Positions 1 to 50,429 of a DNA stretch of 62,090 nucleotides are shown in pieces. This stretch comes from a virus. Below the pieces are notes generated by a model that was not told the DNA's origin, did not search any database, and saw nothing but the letters and a program-made list of their open reading frames with translations. A program made the translations under genes and the position numbers. Each line of letters starts with the position of its first letter. Position 1 is the stretch's first letter. Location of the stretch: positions 1 through 62,090 of the IMG/VR virus record IMGVR_UViG_3300042527_000115; one strand, 5' to 3'.

Positions 1-221
1 CGAGCCGGCCACGCCTGCTGACCTGAATGAGACCTCCCTTGAGGCGGCTGTTATTCAGATCGCTGCATGGACGGATGAGCGTGGTCTGCTGATTGCTGCC
101 AAGCCCAAGAAGCTGATTGTTCCGCCCGCACTGATGTTCGTGGCGACCCGTCTGCTTGAGACTGAGCTTCGCGTAGCTACGGCTGACAACGACATCAACG
201 CCATCAAGAACAATGGTTCTA
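1..221. repeat. Left copy of terminal direct repeat (circularity)
   Basis: These bases are repeated at 61870-62090 with a single difference (T at 94, C at 61963). The repeat lies inside the major capsid gene and joins its two halves in frame. This is what an assembler leaves when it reads round a circular or circularly permuted genome. It is not positioned like a biological terminal repeat, which would not normally sit within a capsid gene. The mismatch suggests strain variation or a read error. Confidence 0.95.
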
Positions 222-33666: not shown

Positions 33667-33695
33667 TTGACATGATATTTCTTTGGGTCCAAAAT
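33667..33695 (+). promoter_or_regulatory. Putative promoter of recombination operon
   Basis: TTGACA at 33667-33672 is a consensus -35; 17 bases later CAAAAT (33690-33695) can act as -10. It precedes the nuclease gene at 33722, whose ribosome site is TGCTAGGAG. Confidence 0.6.
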
Positions 33696-33721
33696 TCAAT
33701 TGTCTACTGCTAGGAGTAAAA

Positions 33722-34594
33722 ATGAAATTAACCAACAAGTTCAATATCCCCCAGACATTTATCAATGTACTGGAGCGCCCGACTTATTCCAAGGGAAAGG
33801 CGAATCTCTCTGTTACCCAGCTGATCAACAGCCCCAAGATCGTAGCCCTGACCAAGAAGTTTGAGGACGAGCTGGAGCAGGACGTCTCGGACATGGTCTG
33901 GTCGATCTTTGGCTCGGCCGTCCACAAGGTCTTAGAGCATGGCCAAGATGACAACCATATCGTTGAGGAGCGCCTGTCTACCGAGATCGATGGCTGGAAG
34001 ATCTCCGGGGCTATCGACCTCCAGATCAAGGGGGATAACTTCATCGAGATCCGGGACTACAAGACAGTCTCAGCATGGGCCGTGATGAACGAAAAGATTG
34101 AGTGGGAGCAGCAGCTAAACCTGTATGCCTACCTAGTAGAGAGAGTAAAAAAGATTCCGGTCATATCCCTTGGGATCGTGGCCATCATCCGGGACTGGAG
34201 CCGCCGCGATGCCGCCACCCGGGAGGGCTACCCAGAAGCTCCGGTCAAAGAGATCCCTATAAAGCTATGGCCGTTTGAGCAGCGGGAGGCGTTCATTAAA
34301 GAGCGTATCCATGCTCACTCTTCTTGCGAGTTTGAGTTAGAGACCGATGGCAACCTGCCGGCCTGTACCCCGGAGGAGATGTGGGAGAAACCGACCATGT
34401 GGGCGGTGAAGAAAGTCGGTGGTGCGAGGGCTAGGTCGGTTCACACAACCAACCAAGAAGCCTTAGAGACGATCGCCAAATTAGGAAAAGCTTACGAGAT
34501 CGAAGTGCGTCCGGGCAGTCGCACCCGATGTGAATCTTTCTGCCCAGTTTCCAACTATTGCCAGCAATGGCGTGATTATCAGGAGAGTAAATGA
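33722..34594 (+). CDS. PD-(D/E)XK nuclease with Cys cluster
   Basis: 290 residues. The nuclease core is ISGAIDLQIKGDNFIEIRDYKTV, with the Asp, Glu and Lys of the PD-(D/E)XK fold. A C-terminal Cys pattern (RCESFCPVSNYCQQW) resembles the iron-sulphur cluster of Cas4/AddB-type nucleases. It is the first gene of the recombination operon, so DNA end processing for the ERF annealase downstream is likely. The start at 33722 has GCTAGGAG five bases upstream; an in-frame ATG at 33683 lies in the promoter. Confidence 0.8.
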   Translation: MKLTNKFNIPQTFINVLERPTYSKGKANLSVTQLINSPKIVALTKKFEDELEQDVSDMVWSIFGSAVHKVLEHGQDDNHIVEERLSTEIDGWKISGAIDLQIKGDNFIEIRDYKTVSAWAVMNEKIEWEQQLNLYAYLVERVKKIPVISLGIVAIIRDWSRRDAATREGYPEAPVKEIPIKLWPFEQREAFIKERIHAHSSCEFELETDGNLPACTPEEMWEKPTMWAVKKVGGARARSVHTTNQEALETIAKLGKAYEIEVRPGSRTRCESFCPVSNYCQQWRDYQESK

Positions 34595-40519: not shown

Positions 40520-40734
40520 ACTATCAAGATAGGCTGGCCAAGGGTGTGGCTGAGCTACAGAAATACCAAAGCACCGCCGGGGAGGTGGTGCAGGTCGAGG
40601 TCGGCCATGACGATGACTGCGGGGTCTTTGATAAGCGGGACTGCACCTGCATCCCGGATATTTACCTGAAGGCCGGGGACAGGACTTGGAAGATCGACCA
40701 GGAGGGCGCCCCTATTTTGTTGACAGTTAACTAG
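40516..40734 (+). CDS. Small Cys-containing protein
   Basis: 72 residues: MNYQDRLAKGVAELQKYQST and then HDDDCGVFDKRDCTCIPDIY, a compact Cys/Asp cluster. Repeated acidic residues beside three Cys suggest a metal site. It overlaps the previous gene by four bases, and its 3-prime end overlaps the promoter of the first small RNA candidate. Confidence 0.5.
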   Translation: MNYQDRLAKGVAELQKYQSTAGEVVQVEVGHDDDCGVFDKRDCTCIPDIYLKAGDRTWKIDQEGAPILLTVN

Positions 40735-40748
40735 GCAGGGTGTATAAC
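40720..40748 (+). promoter_or_regulatory. Promoter of small RNA candidate 1
   Basis: TTGACA (40720-40725), 17 bases, TATAAC (40743-40748): 11 of 12 consensus positions. It lies at the 3-prime end of the preceding gene with no coding gene directly downstream. Confidence 0.82.
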
Positions 40749-40754
40749 CCGCCT

Positions 40755-40856
40755 AGATTGCGACTCTCCTCGCGGTCACCATGAAACCTCCTAGCAGTGG
40801 TCCATTCATGGCACCTTCAGTGGTAACCCCCGGCCTAGACACCCGGGGGTTTTTTT
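40755..40856 (+). ncRNA. Small RNA candidate 1
   Basis: About 100 nucleotides between a near-consensus promoter and an intrinsic terminator. Hairpin 1 pairs CCATGAA (40779-40785) with TTCATGG (40805-40811); its loop contains CCTCCTAGCAG, which is complementary to ribosome-binding sites. The terminator hairpin pairs ACCCCCGG with CCGGGGGT and ends in seven T. A short frame of 37 codons has no ribosome site. The loop matches the leaders of 33722 and 50405 in reverse complement. It could be a trans-acting antisense RNA. Confidence 0.6.
40825..40856 (+). terminator. Intrinsic terminator of small RNA candidate 1
   Basis: ACCCCCGG (40826-40833) pairs with CCGGGGGT (40843-40850), nine-base loop, then T-run to 40856. 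The following ATGG resembles that after the second terminator at 41117. Confidence 0.9.
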
Positions 40857-40991
40857 ATGGCCGGCCGGGTGTAGGATGGAATCGGAGGGGGTAACAACAG
40901 GATTTGAGGCAACGTGGGTTCGGTTGTTGTACACACCCCCCTCCACCCCTTGCGGAACTTTCCTGGACTGTGATAGTCTTCTACTTGTCGG

Positions 40992-41025: not shown

Positions 41026-41116
41026 ACAGAACCCTTTAGTGGGGGCTTGTAGTCATCGTTTGGTAACCGCCCGATGCTGGCCTGTCAAGCCCAAGTCTCC
41101 ACTAAAGGGTTTTTTT
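41026..41116 (+). ncRNA. Small RNA candidate 2, long hairpin with terminator
   Basis: A compound hairpin: AACCCTTTAGTGG (41030-41042) with CCACTAAAGGGTT (41099-41111), inner GGGCTTG (41043-41049) with CAAGCCC (41086-41092) and CATCG (41054-41058) with CGATG (41072-41076), ending in a T run (41110-41116). The apical loop GTAACCGCC is complementary to GGCGGTTAC near the promoter. The structure could serve as terminator, processing signal or antisense RNA. The whole piece lies in a 443-base stretch without a gene. Confidence 0.6.
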
Positions 41117-41668: not shown

Positions 41669-42454
41669 ATGAGAGACCCGTACAGGATTACAGAACCTAC
41701 GGTGATATCGTTCTCGGGAGGAAGAACGTCGGCATACATGCTGCACAGGGTTATGCAATCTAATGACGGACTACCAGAGGACGCAATAGTTTGTTTCGCT
41801 AACACTGGCAAGGAAGAACAAGCAACCTTAGACTTCGTGCATGAGTGTGAAACAAAGTGGAATGCACACATTGTGTGGCTGGAATATCGGTCAGACAAAC
41901 CAAGATTTGAGGTGGTCACATACGAGACAGCTTCTCGGAATGGAGAACCATTTGAGATGCTTATTGAAAAGAAGAACTACCTACCAAACATGGTGGCGAG
42001 GTTCTGCACTCAGGAGCTAAAGGTGCTGGCTATCGATCGGTATTTAAAATCGATTGGATTAGATGAGTACATTACTTTCGTGGGAGTCAGAGCCGATGAG
42101 CCTAGGCGGGTTGCAAAGATCCGTACTCAGGGGGATAAGTTTTGCCCATTAGCTGATGATGGAATAACCGAGAAAATTGTTTGGGATTTCTGGAACAAGA
42201 ATGAGTTTGACCTGAAACTTCCAAAGGTATCAGGAGCTTCAAATTGTGATTTGTGTTTTTTAAAGGGCGCTGGAATTATCGGAGGTTTAATTTCAGAGAA
42301 GCCTGAGAGGGCGGTTTGGTGGGCGAAGATGGAAGAAAAGATTGGTGCCACCTTCAGACCAGACAGACCGTCGTATAAAGAGATGGCAAAGTTTCATGCC
42401 AACCAGGGAAGCTTGTTTGGTGATGAATCTGTTGCTTGCTTTTGTGGGGACTAA
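41669..42454 (+). CDS. PAPS-reductase-like PP-loop protein
   Basis: 261 residues. The PP-loop is SFSGGRTSAYM at residues about 14-24, followed by CFANTGKEEQATLDFV. Cys residues in ARFCTQELK and SNCDLCFLKGAG, with a C-terminal CFCGD, suggest an iron-sulphur cluster. The superfamily includes phosphoadenosine phosphosulphate reductases and DndC-type DNA phosphorothioation proteins. Without DndA, B or D, phosphorothioation is not shown. A thiol-transfer or nucleotide-pyrophosphatase role is possible. Confidence 0.75.
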   Translation: MRDPYRITEPTVISFSGGRTSAYMLHRVMQSNDGLPEDAIVCFANTGKEEQATLDFVHECETKWNAHIVWLEYRSDKPRFEVVTYETASRNGEPFEMLIEKKNYLPNMVARFCTQELKVLAIDRYLKSIGLDEYITFVGVRADEPRRVAKIRTQGDKFCPLADDGITEKIVWDFWNKNEFDLKLPKVSGASNCDLCFLKGAGIIGGLISEKPERAVWWAKMEEKIGATFRPDRPSYKEMAKFHANQGSLFGDESVACFCGD

Positions 42455-42658
42455 ATGCCAGCAATACTTACAAACTTACAAGAAAAAGTTTTAATATATT
42501 TGAAGGACCATAAGACACCAGTACTTGCCAAGACTCTAGCAAAAAGGTTTATAGTTAGCGACAGTGCAGTGTCTAGCGCTTTAAAGTATTTACACGAAAA
42601 ACAATTAGCAGACGTAATCAAGGTAGGCAATCAAAAGTTTTATAAACTGAAGGACTAA
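42455..42658 (+). CDS. Winged-helix DNA-binding protein
   Basis: 67 residues starting directly after the previous stop codon. A helix-turn-helix is visible in LAKTLAKRFIVSDSAVSSALKYL, followed by a short beta wing (LADVIKVGNQKFYKLKD). It resembles the DNA-binding half of small MarR/ArsR-like regulators. It may control its own operon. Confidence 0.6.
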   Translation: MPAILTNLQEKVLIYLKDHKTPVLAKTLAKRFIVSDSAVSSALKYLHEKQLADVIKVGNQKFYKLKD

Positions 42659-42667
42659 GGAGAGAAA

Positions 42668-43537
42668 ATGAAGAAGTTAAATCTTCTCGTCATCCGTATT
42701 GATGGCGGGACACAGGCCCGTGTCGCTCTTGATCAGGCCGTAGTCACAGAATATGCGGAACATATGAAGGATGGGGATCAGTTCCCCCCGATCACAGTGT
42801 TCTATGACGGCAGCGAATATTGGTTGGCTGACGGATTCCACAGATACTTTGCGACCAAAGCCAATGGCATGGTCAGCATCGAGGCAGACGTCAAAGAAGG
42901 TACCCAAAGAGATGCGTTGCTCTATTCGTTCGGAGCCAACGGTCGCCGCGGCCTATCAATGAACTTCGAAGATCGACGCAGCGTTATCAAGCGGATGCTG
43001 GAAGATCAAGAGTGGAGCCAATGGACCAACGCTCAAATCGCCAAGCACATTGGCGTATCCAAGATGACGGTGGGCCGTATCAAGGCGCAGCTGGAGGCAG
43101 AGAAGGGCGCAGAAGAGGCACCTACCACCAAGAAATATATTGACAAGCACGGCAACGAATCCACGATCAATACCAAGAATCTTGGTAAAAAATTCTCTAA
43201 GAACCAAGAAGAACCAACTCTAGATAGAAAGTTAATAGAGGCCGAAAAGTTGGAAGAGGATGACAGGCTTAAAGAACTAGCCGACACCATCCGGGAACTT
43301 GAGGAAGAAAATACCCTATTGAAAGACAAGATGGCGATCGGTCAATGGGACGCCTCGGAGATTGAGAAGATCGATGCCGAGGAGCTGATCAAGGATTTAC
43401 GCAGCCAGATCAAAGTGCTGGAGCTGGACAACAAGGCACTTAGGGATAGTCGGGATATGTTCCAGAATCGTAATGCGGAATTATTGAAGACCGTCAAGAC
43501 ATTAATGTCTAAACTGAAGAAGGCAGGAATTGAATGA
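42668..43537 (+). CDS. ParB-like nuclease-domain protein with HTH
   Basis: 289 residues. The ParB/sulfiredoxin core is seen in DGDQFPPITVFYDGSEYWLADGFHRYFA, and a helix-turn-helix in NAQIAKHIGVSKMTVGRIKAQL. The last 110 residues form long coiled coils (EELIKDLRSQIKVLEL). AAGGAGAG precedes the ATG. Phage ParB-like proteins may bind and cut or organise DNA, or regulate transcription. The partner gene parA is absent. Confidence 0.72.
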   Translation: MKKLNLLVIRIDGGTQARVALDQAVVTEYAEHMKDGDQFPPITVFYDGSEYWLADGFHRYFATKANGMVSIEADVKEGTQRDALLYSFGANGRRGLSMNFEDRRSVIKRMLEDQEWSQWTNAQIAKHIGVSKMTVGRIKAQLEAEKGAEEAPTTKKYIDKHGNESTINTKNLGKKFSKNQEEPTLDRKLIEAEKLEEDDRLKELADTIRELEEENTLLKDKMAIGQWDASEIEKIDAEELIKDLRSQIKVLELDNKALRDSRDMFQNRNAELLKTVKTLMSKLKKAGIE

Positions 43538-49567: not shown

Positions 49568-49755
49568 GCTGCCTCCCTGATGCGGGATAGCGTTCCGCAG
49601 ACAAGGCAGCACCCGTCTTCATGCGGTGTGCGGTCTTCGCATGGCAAGCAATCGCGCCATGAATCACAGGTTAGAGTGCCGTCCTCAACCGCTTTGTAGA
49701 CGGCAGACTGACCACCTTTTTCGTAGATCTGAACCGCCTTTTCGTAATTAGACAT
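49564..49755 (-). CDS. Cys-rich small protein
   Basis: 63 residues. LTCDSWRDCLPCEDRTPHEDGCC followed by LVCG shows six Cys and one His, and is probably a zinc-binding fold. The N-terminal part is helical (YEKAVQIYEKGGQSAVYKAV). It overlaps its neighbours by several bases. It may bind nucleic acid or a host protein. Confidence 0.55.
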   Translation of the reverse strand: MSNYEKAVQIYEKGGQSAVYKAVEDGTLTCDSWRDCLPCEDRTPHEDGCCLVCGTLSRIREAA

Positions 49756-50071
49756 GGCTCACCTCCAACTCTTCGGGCAATTCAATCTCATCGCCAAGCT
49801 TGCTGGCCACATAGCATCGCATCGCGGCGATTAGGGGTGTTGGCCCAGAATAATGAGATTCTTCGGAAAACTCTGCGTCATATGGCAAGGCTACCCATTC
49901 TTCAATGTGTTGTTTTACTTGTATGCCTTCCCGTTCAATGATCGGGCCACCTTGCGCCCAATTTTTTGAGTATTCAGGGCAAGAATCATCGAATCCATAA
50001 CGAACATTTGCATATTCGCATTGGGCTACTGCCCAATCTAATGCGGCTCCTGATAATTCATTTGTTTTCAT
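49748..50071 (-). CDS. ninX: NinX-like protein (DUF2591)
   Basis: 107 residues from the ATG at 50071 with GGGAGGCAGC upstream. Characteristic parts are GAALDWAVAQCEY, WAQGGPIIEREGI, EEWVAL and the C-terminal GPTPLIAAMRCYVASKLGDEIELPEE. This matches the phage NinX/DUF2591 family of lambdoid nin regions; the biochemical function is unknown. It overlaps the next gene by four bases. Confidence 0.8.
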   Translation of the reverse strand: MKTNELSGAALDWAVAQCEYANVRYGFDDSCPEYSKNWAQGGPIIEREGIQVKQHIEEWVALPYDAEFSEESHYSGPTPLIAAMRCYVASKLGDEIELPEELEVSHV

Positions 50072-50244
50072 GCTGCCTCCCTTACTTTCAGATCCCAAGC
50101 TTGTTGCAGCCCTTTATCTGAAAATTGATCGTATCCACCACCAGCAAAAAACATGGTTACCTGATGTAGCTGATCAGGGTTATCTAACAAAAAGCGCAAC
50201 TCTAATTCGGTCAATTCCTTGACCATCTGCTCTCTTGTTTTCAT
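50068..50244 (-). CDS. Small helical protein, 58 residues
   Basis: Begins MKTREQMVKELTELELRFLL with an amphipathic helix and continues DNPDQLHQVTMFFAGGG. The ATG lies in the stop codon of the previous gene (ATGA). No motif recognised. Part of the early minus-strand operon. Confidence 0.5.
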   Translation of the reverse strand: MKTREQMVKELTELELRFLLDNPDQLHQVTMFFAGGGYDQFSDKGLQQAWDLKVREAA

Positions 50245-50405
50245 GCTTTCTCTCCTTCGGTGTAAAAGAAAAAAGTTTTTTGACAACGCGGGCAAACACC
50301 GCTCTCACCCTCACCCACTAGCGGCGTAGTGAAAATGCGAACGCCATCACGCGGACAAGACGGAAGATCGTCTGCCTCAAGTGCATAAAAAACTGGGTTA
50401 TCCAT
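50241..50405 (-). CDS. Small zinc-ribbon protein, first gene of operon
   Basis: 54 residues. LPSCPRDGVRIF near residue 17 and GVCPRCQKTFFFY near residue 37 give three or four ligands for zinc. The strong ribosome site TGCTAGGAGGTTT precedes the ATG. It is the first gene after the promoter at 50430-50459. The leader is complementary over 13 bases to the loop of small RNA candidate 1. Confidence 0.65.
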   Translation of the reverse strand: MDNPVFYALEADDLPSCPRDGVRIFTTPLVGEGESGVCPRCQKTFFFYTEGEKA

Positions 50406-50429
50406 TTTTAAAACCTCCTAGCAATTGAA

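Follow-up and report, generated by a model that had tools for sequence, protein, structure and literature searches.

A putative small RNA of uncultured phages with a loop complementary to a leader motif that overlaps the Shine-Dalgarno sequence of early phage genes

The c4 antisense RNA of phages P1 and P7 has one target, the ant antirepressor mRNA; both are encoded on one transcript, from which c4 RNA is processed out. Through loop complementarity, c4 RNA pairs with a phage mRNA in the region of its ribosome binding site, and sar RNA of P22 and OOP RNA of lambda are further phage antisense RNAs that lower the expression of phage genes; the phage antisense RNAs covered by this review have, for the most part, individual phage genes or host RNAs as targets (PMC12197685). 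In alphaproteobacteria, the alpha-r14 (NfeR1, 'cuckoo') RNAs keep an ultraconserved anti-Shine-Dalgarno sequence, CCUCCUCCC, unpaired amid highly variable stems, and silence many mRNAs by blocking translation initiation (PMC10746234). The sX13 RNA of Xanthomonas has three stems, the apical C-rich loops of which repress mRNAs carrying G-rich motifs at their ribosome sites in an Hfq-independent manner (PMC3771888).

In this study, a putative small RNA (sRNA) was analysed in a window of 62,090 bases, that is, the whole stretch of viral DNA under analysis (record IMGVR_UViG_3300042527_000115). The features of the locus are listed in Table 1. The predicted fold of the sRNA was more stable than those of shuffled sequences (z-score −2.6); the arms of hairpin 2 lie at 40779-40785 and 40805-40811, and its loop includes most of AAACCTCCTAGCAGT. 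As in the class of trans-acting antisense sRNAs, the locus appears, from its promoter and intrinsic terminator sequences, to be a stand-alone transcription unit, and a poly-U terminator is present. When operons were read from the open reading frames, the sRNA was located at the 3' end of the rightward early operon headed by target 1, upstream of ParB-like, helicase and primase genes, and facing the leftward operon headed by target 2; we infer the label 'early' for this region from its gene content. Read-through from the 33.7-40.7 kb operon would also stop at the sRNA terminator.

Table 1. Coordinates of the putative sRNA, its predicted targets and neighbouring features in the window
Feature	Position	Strand	Basis or remark
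Small RNA, ~102 nt, three hairpins	40755..40856	+	Fold and syntenic relatives; probable start near 40755
sRNA promoter, TTGACA - 17 nt - TATAAC, strong sigma-70-type	40720..40748	+	Sequence
Hairpin 1, loop CUCUCC	40756..40777	+	Fold
Hairpin 2, 7-bp stem CCAUGAA/UUCAUGG, 19-nt loop with seed	40779..40811	+	Fold
Seed AAACCUCCUAGCAGU, complementary to both leaders	40784..40798	+	Sequence
Intrinsic terminator, CCCCCGG...CCGGGGG TTTTTTT	40827..40856	+	Sequence; identical hairpin in L004, L105, L119
Target 1, ACTGCTAGGAG, Shine-Dalgarno and bases upstream, exonuclease gene	33706..33716	+	ATG at 33722
PD-(D/E)XK exonuclease, heads early operon	33722..34594	+	PF12705, phrog_2139
Promoter-like TTGACA-17-CAAAAT, first early operon	33667..33695	+	Sequence
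Target 2, TGCTAGGAGGTTT leader, 13 bp complementary	50411..50423	-	ATG at 50405
54-aa cysteine-containing small protein, heads leftward operon	50241..50405	-	ORF
ParB-like gene	42668..43537	+	Own leader reads CTAAGGAG

Several further elements were seen in the vicinity of the sRNA. Directly downstream of it, at 40884-40944 of the window, lies a conserved structured element (GGAGGGGG TAACAACAGGATT...GCAACGTGGGTTCGGTTGTTG...CCCCCCTCC), a stretch in which no Rfam match was found; it is present in relatives L002/L006 and L019/L004, and in L005/L097 its outer stem is changed yet paired. A second small RNA at 41028-41115 of the window (AACCCTTTAGTGG...CCACTAAAGGGTTTTTTT) lacks a conserved counterpart at the corresponding position of L002, a near-identical relative. 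In one phage subgroup (L108/G040 and L062/G006), an apparently non-coding stretch lies about 50-140 nt 3' of the sRNA; it has a promoter-like −10, starts with GCTAGGAG and runs for about 250 nt, with possible structure, and it may serve the sRNA as a sponge or as one more target.

The loop of hairpin 2 is complementary to the ribosome sites of two genes of the window. As shown by direct comparison, AAACCTCCTAGCA (40784-40796) is the reverse complement of TGCTAGGAGGTTT on the minus strand (50423-50411; 13 bp), and CTCCTAGCAGT (40788-40798) is the reverse complement of ACTGCTAGGAG (33706-33716; 11 bp). The original prediction, which had named these coordinates and complementarities at the 50405 and 33722 leaders, was borne out base for base; as read from the open reading frames, both targets are the first genes of operons, and they have TGCTAGGAG in common. 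TGCTAGGAG occurs exactly three times in the 62,090 bases, namely in the two leaders and, as its reverse complement, in the sRNA loop, and the loop core CTCCTAGC is the reverse complement of GCTAGGAG in both leaders. Predicted duplex energies with the two leaders were −24.5 and −24.2 kcal/mol. When the other leaders of the window were scored (442 candidate starts and 97 gene models; the 54-aa gene at 50405, too short for the automatic gene set, was added by hand), none equalled these contiguous matches, the next best being 8 bp; on the other side of the balance, the window has no more than two strong targets. In dinucleotide shuffles of the sRNA, a best match of 13 bp arose in 2 of 300, and 13 bp together with a second match of 11 bp in 0/300, which counts in favour of the predicted pairing. 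Both in the window and in relatives, the exposed seed was found to be complementary to translation initiation regions elsewhere.

With respect to gene content, the operon of target 1 also has genes for an Erf-like annealing protein (phrog_155, 34793) and for a protein resembling phage nucleotide-kinase families, and the promoter-like element upstream would place the target 1 motif close to the 5' end of the mRNA. In the leftward operon, a NinX-like gene (49748-50098, PF10765) is next after the gene for the 54-aa protein, for which a family match was looked for and none was found; a promoter-like TTGACA-18-TATCCT lies directly upstream of target 2. In the ParB-like leader of the window (42640-42670, CTAAGGAG) the motif is weakened or lost, and the same gene is a motif target in 19 other contigs.

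By analogy, the biology of the phage sRNA would be closest to that of c4 RNA, in that its loop is complementary to the ribosome-site region of phage mRNAs. However, c4 RNA has one target (ant), whereas many unlinked targets, including targets on the opposite strand, are proposed here; instead of being on the transcript of its target, the sRNA has its own promoter, and its predicted targets are found at 33.7 kb and, on the other strand, at 50.4 kb. Similarly, sar and OOP RNAs have single antisense targets, in contrast to the proposed multi-gene regulon with a common leader motif.

To survey related phages, an exact 22-mer search was used, which yielded three contigs, and a gapped pattern of seed and terminator, which yielded 28 viral contigs; further loci, selected independently of the RNA, came from searches with the exonuclease and ParB-like protein sequences, and additional RNAs were found by synteny, upstream of the ParB-like gene. 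In this set, found partly by motif, a syntenic RNA was present in about 30 related uncultured, mostly aquatic phages, and the recurrence of the same RNA and motif across them had been beyond the reach of the original prediction. The shared layout consists of a strong sigma-70-type promoter, hairpin 1, hairpin 2 with a (C/T)CTAGC apical loop, and a terminator. The CTAGC core was located in the apical region of hairpin 2 in 26 folded variants, and a search for the enclosing stem found 25 different sequences for it among 31 RNAs, with the loop core kept, although for some long loops the automatic stem was not that of hairpin 2. Promoters of the TTGAC(A/G)-15..19-TAT type were found 5' of many related RNAs, with automatic −35/−10 calls failing in about six of the 26 variants, and hairpin 1 loops elsewhere are of the UCUCC or CCCAC type. 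A full MAFFT alignment failed to align the stems well, so that the structures rest on single-sequence folds. The sRNA of L118 (L191) has an additional copy of CTCCTAGC in the stretch that separates its seed hairpin from the terminator.

Motif and RNA were not always found together. G012-G014, G021 and G029 have motif leaders, and an RNA was looked for in them and none was found, possibly because these contigs are fragments; G027 and G028 had neither motif leaders nor RNA. Among named, cultured relatives identified by terminase (023Pt_psg01, DSL-LC04, MinM2, HTVC023P, and HTVC027P apart from its last 7.6 kb), no pair of GCTAGGAG leader and RNA was found. In Manatee Spring phage MW202545 (L204), which has a ParB-like gene and two ACTAGGAG leaders, a matching RNA was looked for and none was seen; MW202545.1 may possibly carry a variant system with a different core. 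Two MAGs, of Desulforudis (L122) and Candidatus Dactylopiibacterium (L123), gave matches that were rejected as chance, since they had no matching hairpins and the motif was not in excess over the control in these genomes.

The leader motif was examined across these phages. In total, 120 leaders with the motif (GCTAGGA) and an open frame were collected, up to 8 per phage. They precede genes of numerous unrelated families: the ParB-like protein is represented in 19 contigs, a 155-aa protein in 15, a DUF6876 protein in 13 and the exonuclease in 9, besides a helicase, an HNH endonuclease and many small unknown genes. The motif core occurred 93 times, compared with 12 times for the reversed control (30 contigs); in G001, 8 of 9 occurrences were leaders, and the motif was among the commonest leader 8-mers in several phages. 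It was kept despite an altered Shine-Dalgarno sequence, as AACTGCTAGGAC in G016-G018 and CTGCTAGGAAAGG in the L071 phage. A good promoter was found at 26 of the 120 motif leaders, compared with 87 of 3240 random sites, mostly 7-16 nt upstream of the motif, so that mRNAs made from these promoters would begin almost directly with the motif; other motif leaders are operon-internal or follow hairpins. In the early regions of G018, G031, G039 and G047-G051, many motif leaders come after a short hairpin and a conserved AACT (e.g. GATTGTCATTCGGCAATCATAACTTTAACTGCTAGGAG), suggesting that hairpin, AACT and motif leader form a portable intergenic cassette.

Loops and leaders were then compared between phages. 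Loops with CTCCTAGCG occur together with CGCTAGGAG leaders, and loops with CTCCTAGCA with TGCTAGGAG leaders. In raw counts over leaders, without lineage correction, the base before GCTAGG was C in 17 and T in 2 for G-loop phages, and T in 66, C in 6 and A in 2 for A-loop phages; exceptions at position −1 are G034 and G008, in which an A-loop goes with a CGCTAGGAG leader. When loops were permuted among 16 lineage representatives, own loops matched over 11.3 bp and swapped loops over 10.2 bp (p about 0.0002), with duplex energies of −20.5 and −18.6 kcal/mol, respectively (p 0.0003). The p value of this swap test was 0.0002 over all 33 phages, 0.00005 with Watson-Crick pairs only, and at most 0.001 when any one lineage was left out. 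The RNA of L270, which has a 14-nt exact match with a divergent upstream flank (GCCC / GGGC), had been picked by its own match; p was 0.0006 when L270 was omitted, and 0.004 when both L270 and the window, the two strongest, were omitted. In L269, the leader GGAAA goes with the loop TTTCC. Within the subgroup with the GCAC...GTGC framework, the swap test was not significant (p 0.17). A first test of positions −1 to −3 only had been weak (p 0.02-0.04), and an automatic extraction of ParB pairs, in which 7 of 19 were lost and one wrong site was included, gave p 0.13; both were superseded by the full-flank swap test. By that test, seed and target appear to have coevolved, with exceptions: as to compensatory changes in relatives, loop changes come with compensating leader changes in most phages, though not in all.

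Several hairpins, conserved anti-Shine-Dalgarno loops and variable stems make the phage sRNA similar to the alpha-r14 RNAs. In contrast to these, which bear CCUCCUCCC in the loops of three hairpins, the phage core CUCCUAGC is found in one hairpin, and the seed CUCCUAGC(A/G) has conserved bases beyond Shine-Dalgarno complementarity, is phage-encoded and is matched to phage leaders. The C-rich-loop design also resembles that of sX13, but sX13 is chromosomal, and its targets share a G-run only, without the specific extended motif or the seed-target covariation of the phage sRNA. When Rfam was scanned at gathering scores, no family matched the sRNA; the best weak match was RF02837 anti-hemB (Burkholderia RNA 7), at 23.9 bits (E 0.003), far below the gathering score of 49.5 that membership takes. 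The two have in common a CUCC-type-loop hairpin followed by a terminator, and this generic shape alone was matched. A blastn search of INPHARED with the sRNA region gave no match. By the tests made, the phage sRNA belongs to none of alpha-r14, sX13 and c4, and it is best filed as a candidate phage trans-acting RNA that would control a regulon of multiple phage genes through an extended seed of its own.

Taken together, these data make it likely that a phage trans-acting sRNA pairs with a leader motif of its own phage and occludes the Shine-Dalgarno sequence of an early-gene regulon. The sRNA of ~100 nt would be made from its own strong sigma-70-type promoter, and the apical loop of hairpin 2 would expose CUCCUAGC(A/G). 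In the cell, this loop would bind in trans the leader motif (T/C)GCUAGGAG of several phage mRNAs, which is situated at their 5' end or close to it and overlaps with the Shine-Dalgarno sequence. Occlusion of the ribosome site would then reduce protein synthesis from the leading genes of early operons, i.e., those for the exonuclease, the ParB-like protein and many small early proteins. In the window, two early operons on opposite strands would be targeted; the sRNA is at the 3' end of the first and could thus exert delayed negative feedback, with early translation shut down as the RNA accumulates. The original prediction of a trans-acting RNA that pairs with early-operon leaders is thus supported by comparative evidence, namely recurrence of the pair in many phages, flank covariation, constant antisense orientation and a motif that is always in a hairpin loop; repression is the part that we infer.

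Alternatively, pairing might activate or stabilise mRNAs with short leaders, or the leaders might be sponges (decoys) for an RNA with host mRNA targets; the target sites are close to the 5' end of the mRNA, a place at which pairing could prevent decay, the anti-Shine-Dalgarno-like loop could pair with host leaders, and in one subgroup the apparent non-coding RNA downstream also starts with GCTAGGAG. Given that the pairing spans the Shine-Dalgarno sequence itself, which normally blocks initiation, and that the covariation is with phage leaders, we regard such modes of action as unlikely. It was also considered whether GCTAGGAG is a DNA operator of a phage regulator (e.g. the ParB-like protein), with the copy at the sRNA locus being another operator in reverse. 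The frequent position of the motif directly downstream of a promoter −10 is compatible with an operator, and a ParB-like gene adjoins, with a PAPS-reductase-like gene (41669-42454) and a short ORF lying between it and the sRNA in the window. However, the motif is non-palindromic and is kept in one orientation and at Shine-Dalgarno distance in leaders, even in those without a detectable promoter; in the RNA loci, it is invariably antisense and never outside a hairpin loop while the stems change, and its flanks covary as base pairs. An operator is therefore quite improbable.

A C-rich loop of generic anti-Shine-Dalgarno type, combined with shared ancestry of the leaders, could likewise produce complementarity with no specific pairing, inasmuch as CUCC is anti-Shine-Dalgarno in any bacterium and a loop of the CUCC type is seen in hairpin 1 of several phages as well. 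We consider this very improbable, because the conserved core has CUAGC, which is outside Shine-Dalgarno complementarity; because G016, G018 and G022, which keep CCTAGCAG without the 5'-side CTC, have lost the CUC part and kept AGCAG(UU), the loops of G018 and G022 having CAGTT, which matches AACTGCTAGG of their leaders; and because leaders of unrelated genes have in common a GCT upstream of AGGAG that has no part in pairing with the 16S anti-Shine-Dalgarno sequence. Finally, the alternative originally offered, that the locus is an old inverted leader copy with a minus-strand ribosome site and ATG (the minus strand reads GCTAGGAGGTTTCATG) and no functional RNA, can hardly be credited, since the minus frame stops after 9 codons, no conserved minus-strand frame was seen in relatives, and related loci keep the loop core only, with different stems and flanks, and have their own promoter and terminator.

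Beyond the window, we lean towards the view that a large clade of uncultured phages has a phage-wide post-transcriptional regulon, in which one RNA silences a variable set of early genes through a portable leader motif, new genes join by gaining the motif, and seed and motifs diverge together between lineages. Compared with the phage antisense RNAs reviewed in PMC12197685, such a system would stand apart in that one RNA has as many as eight targets in its own phage, recognises an extended Shine-Dalgarno motif dedicated to it, and covaries with these targets from lineage to lineage through its seed. It would offer natural compensatory variants ready for testing seed rules, as well as a route to co-regulated small early genes. 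If this reading is true, phages can set groups of early genes at the level of translation through one small RNA.
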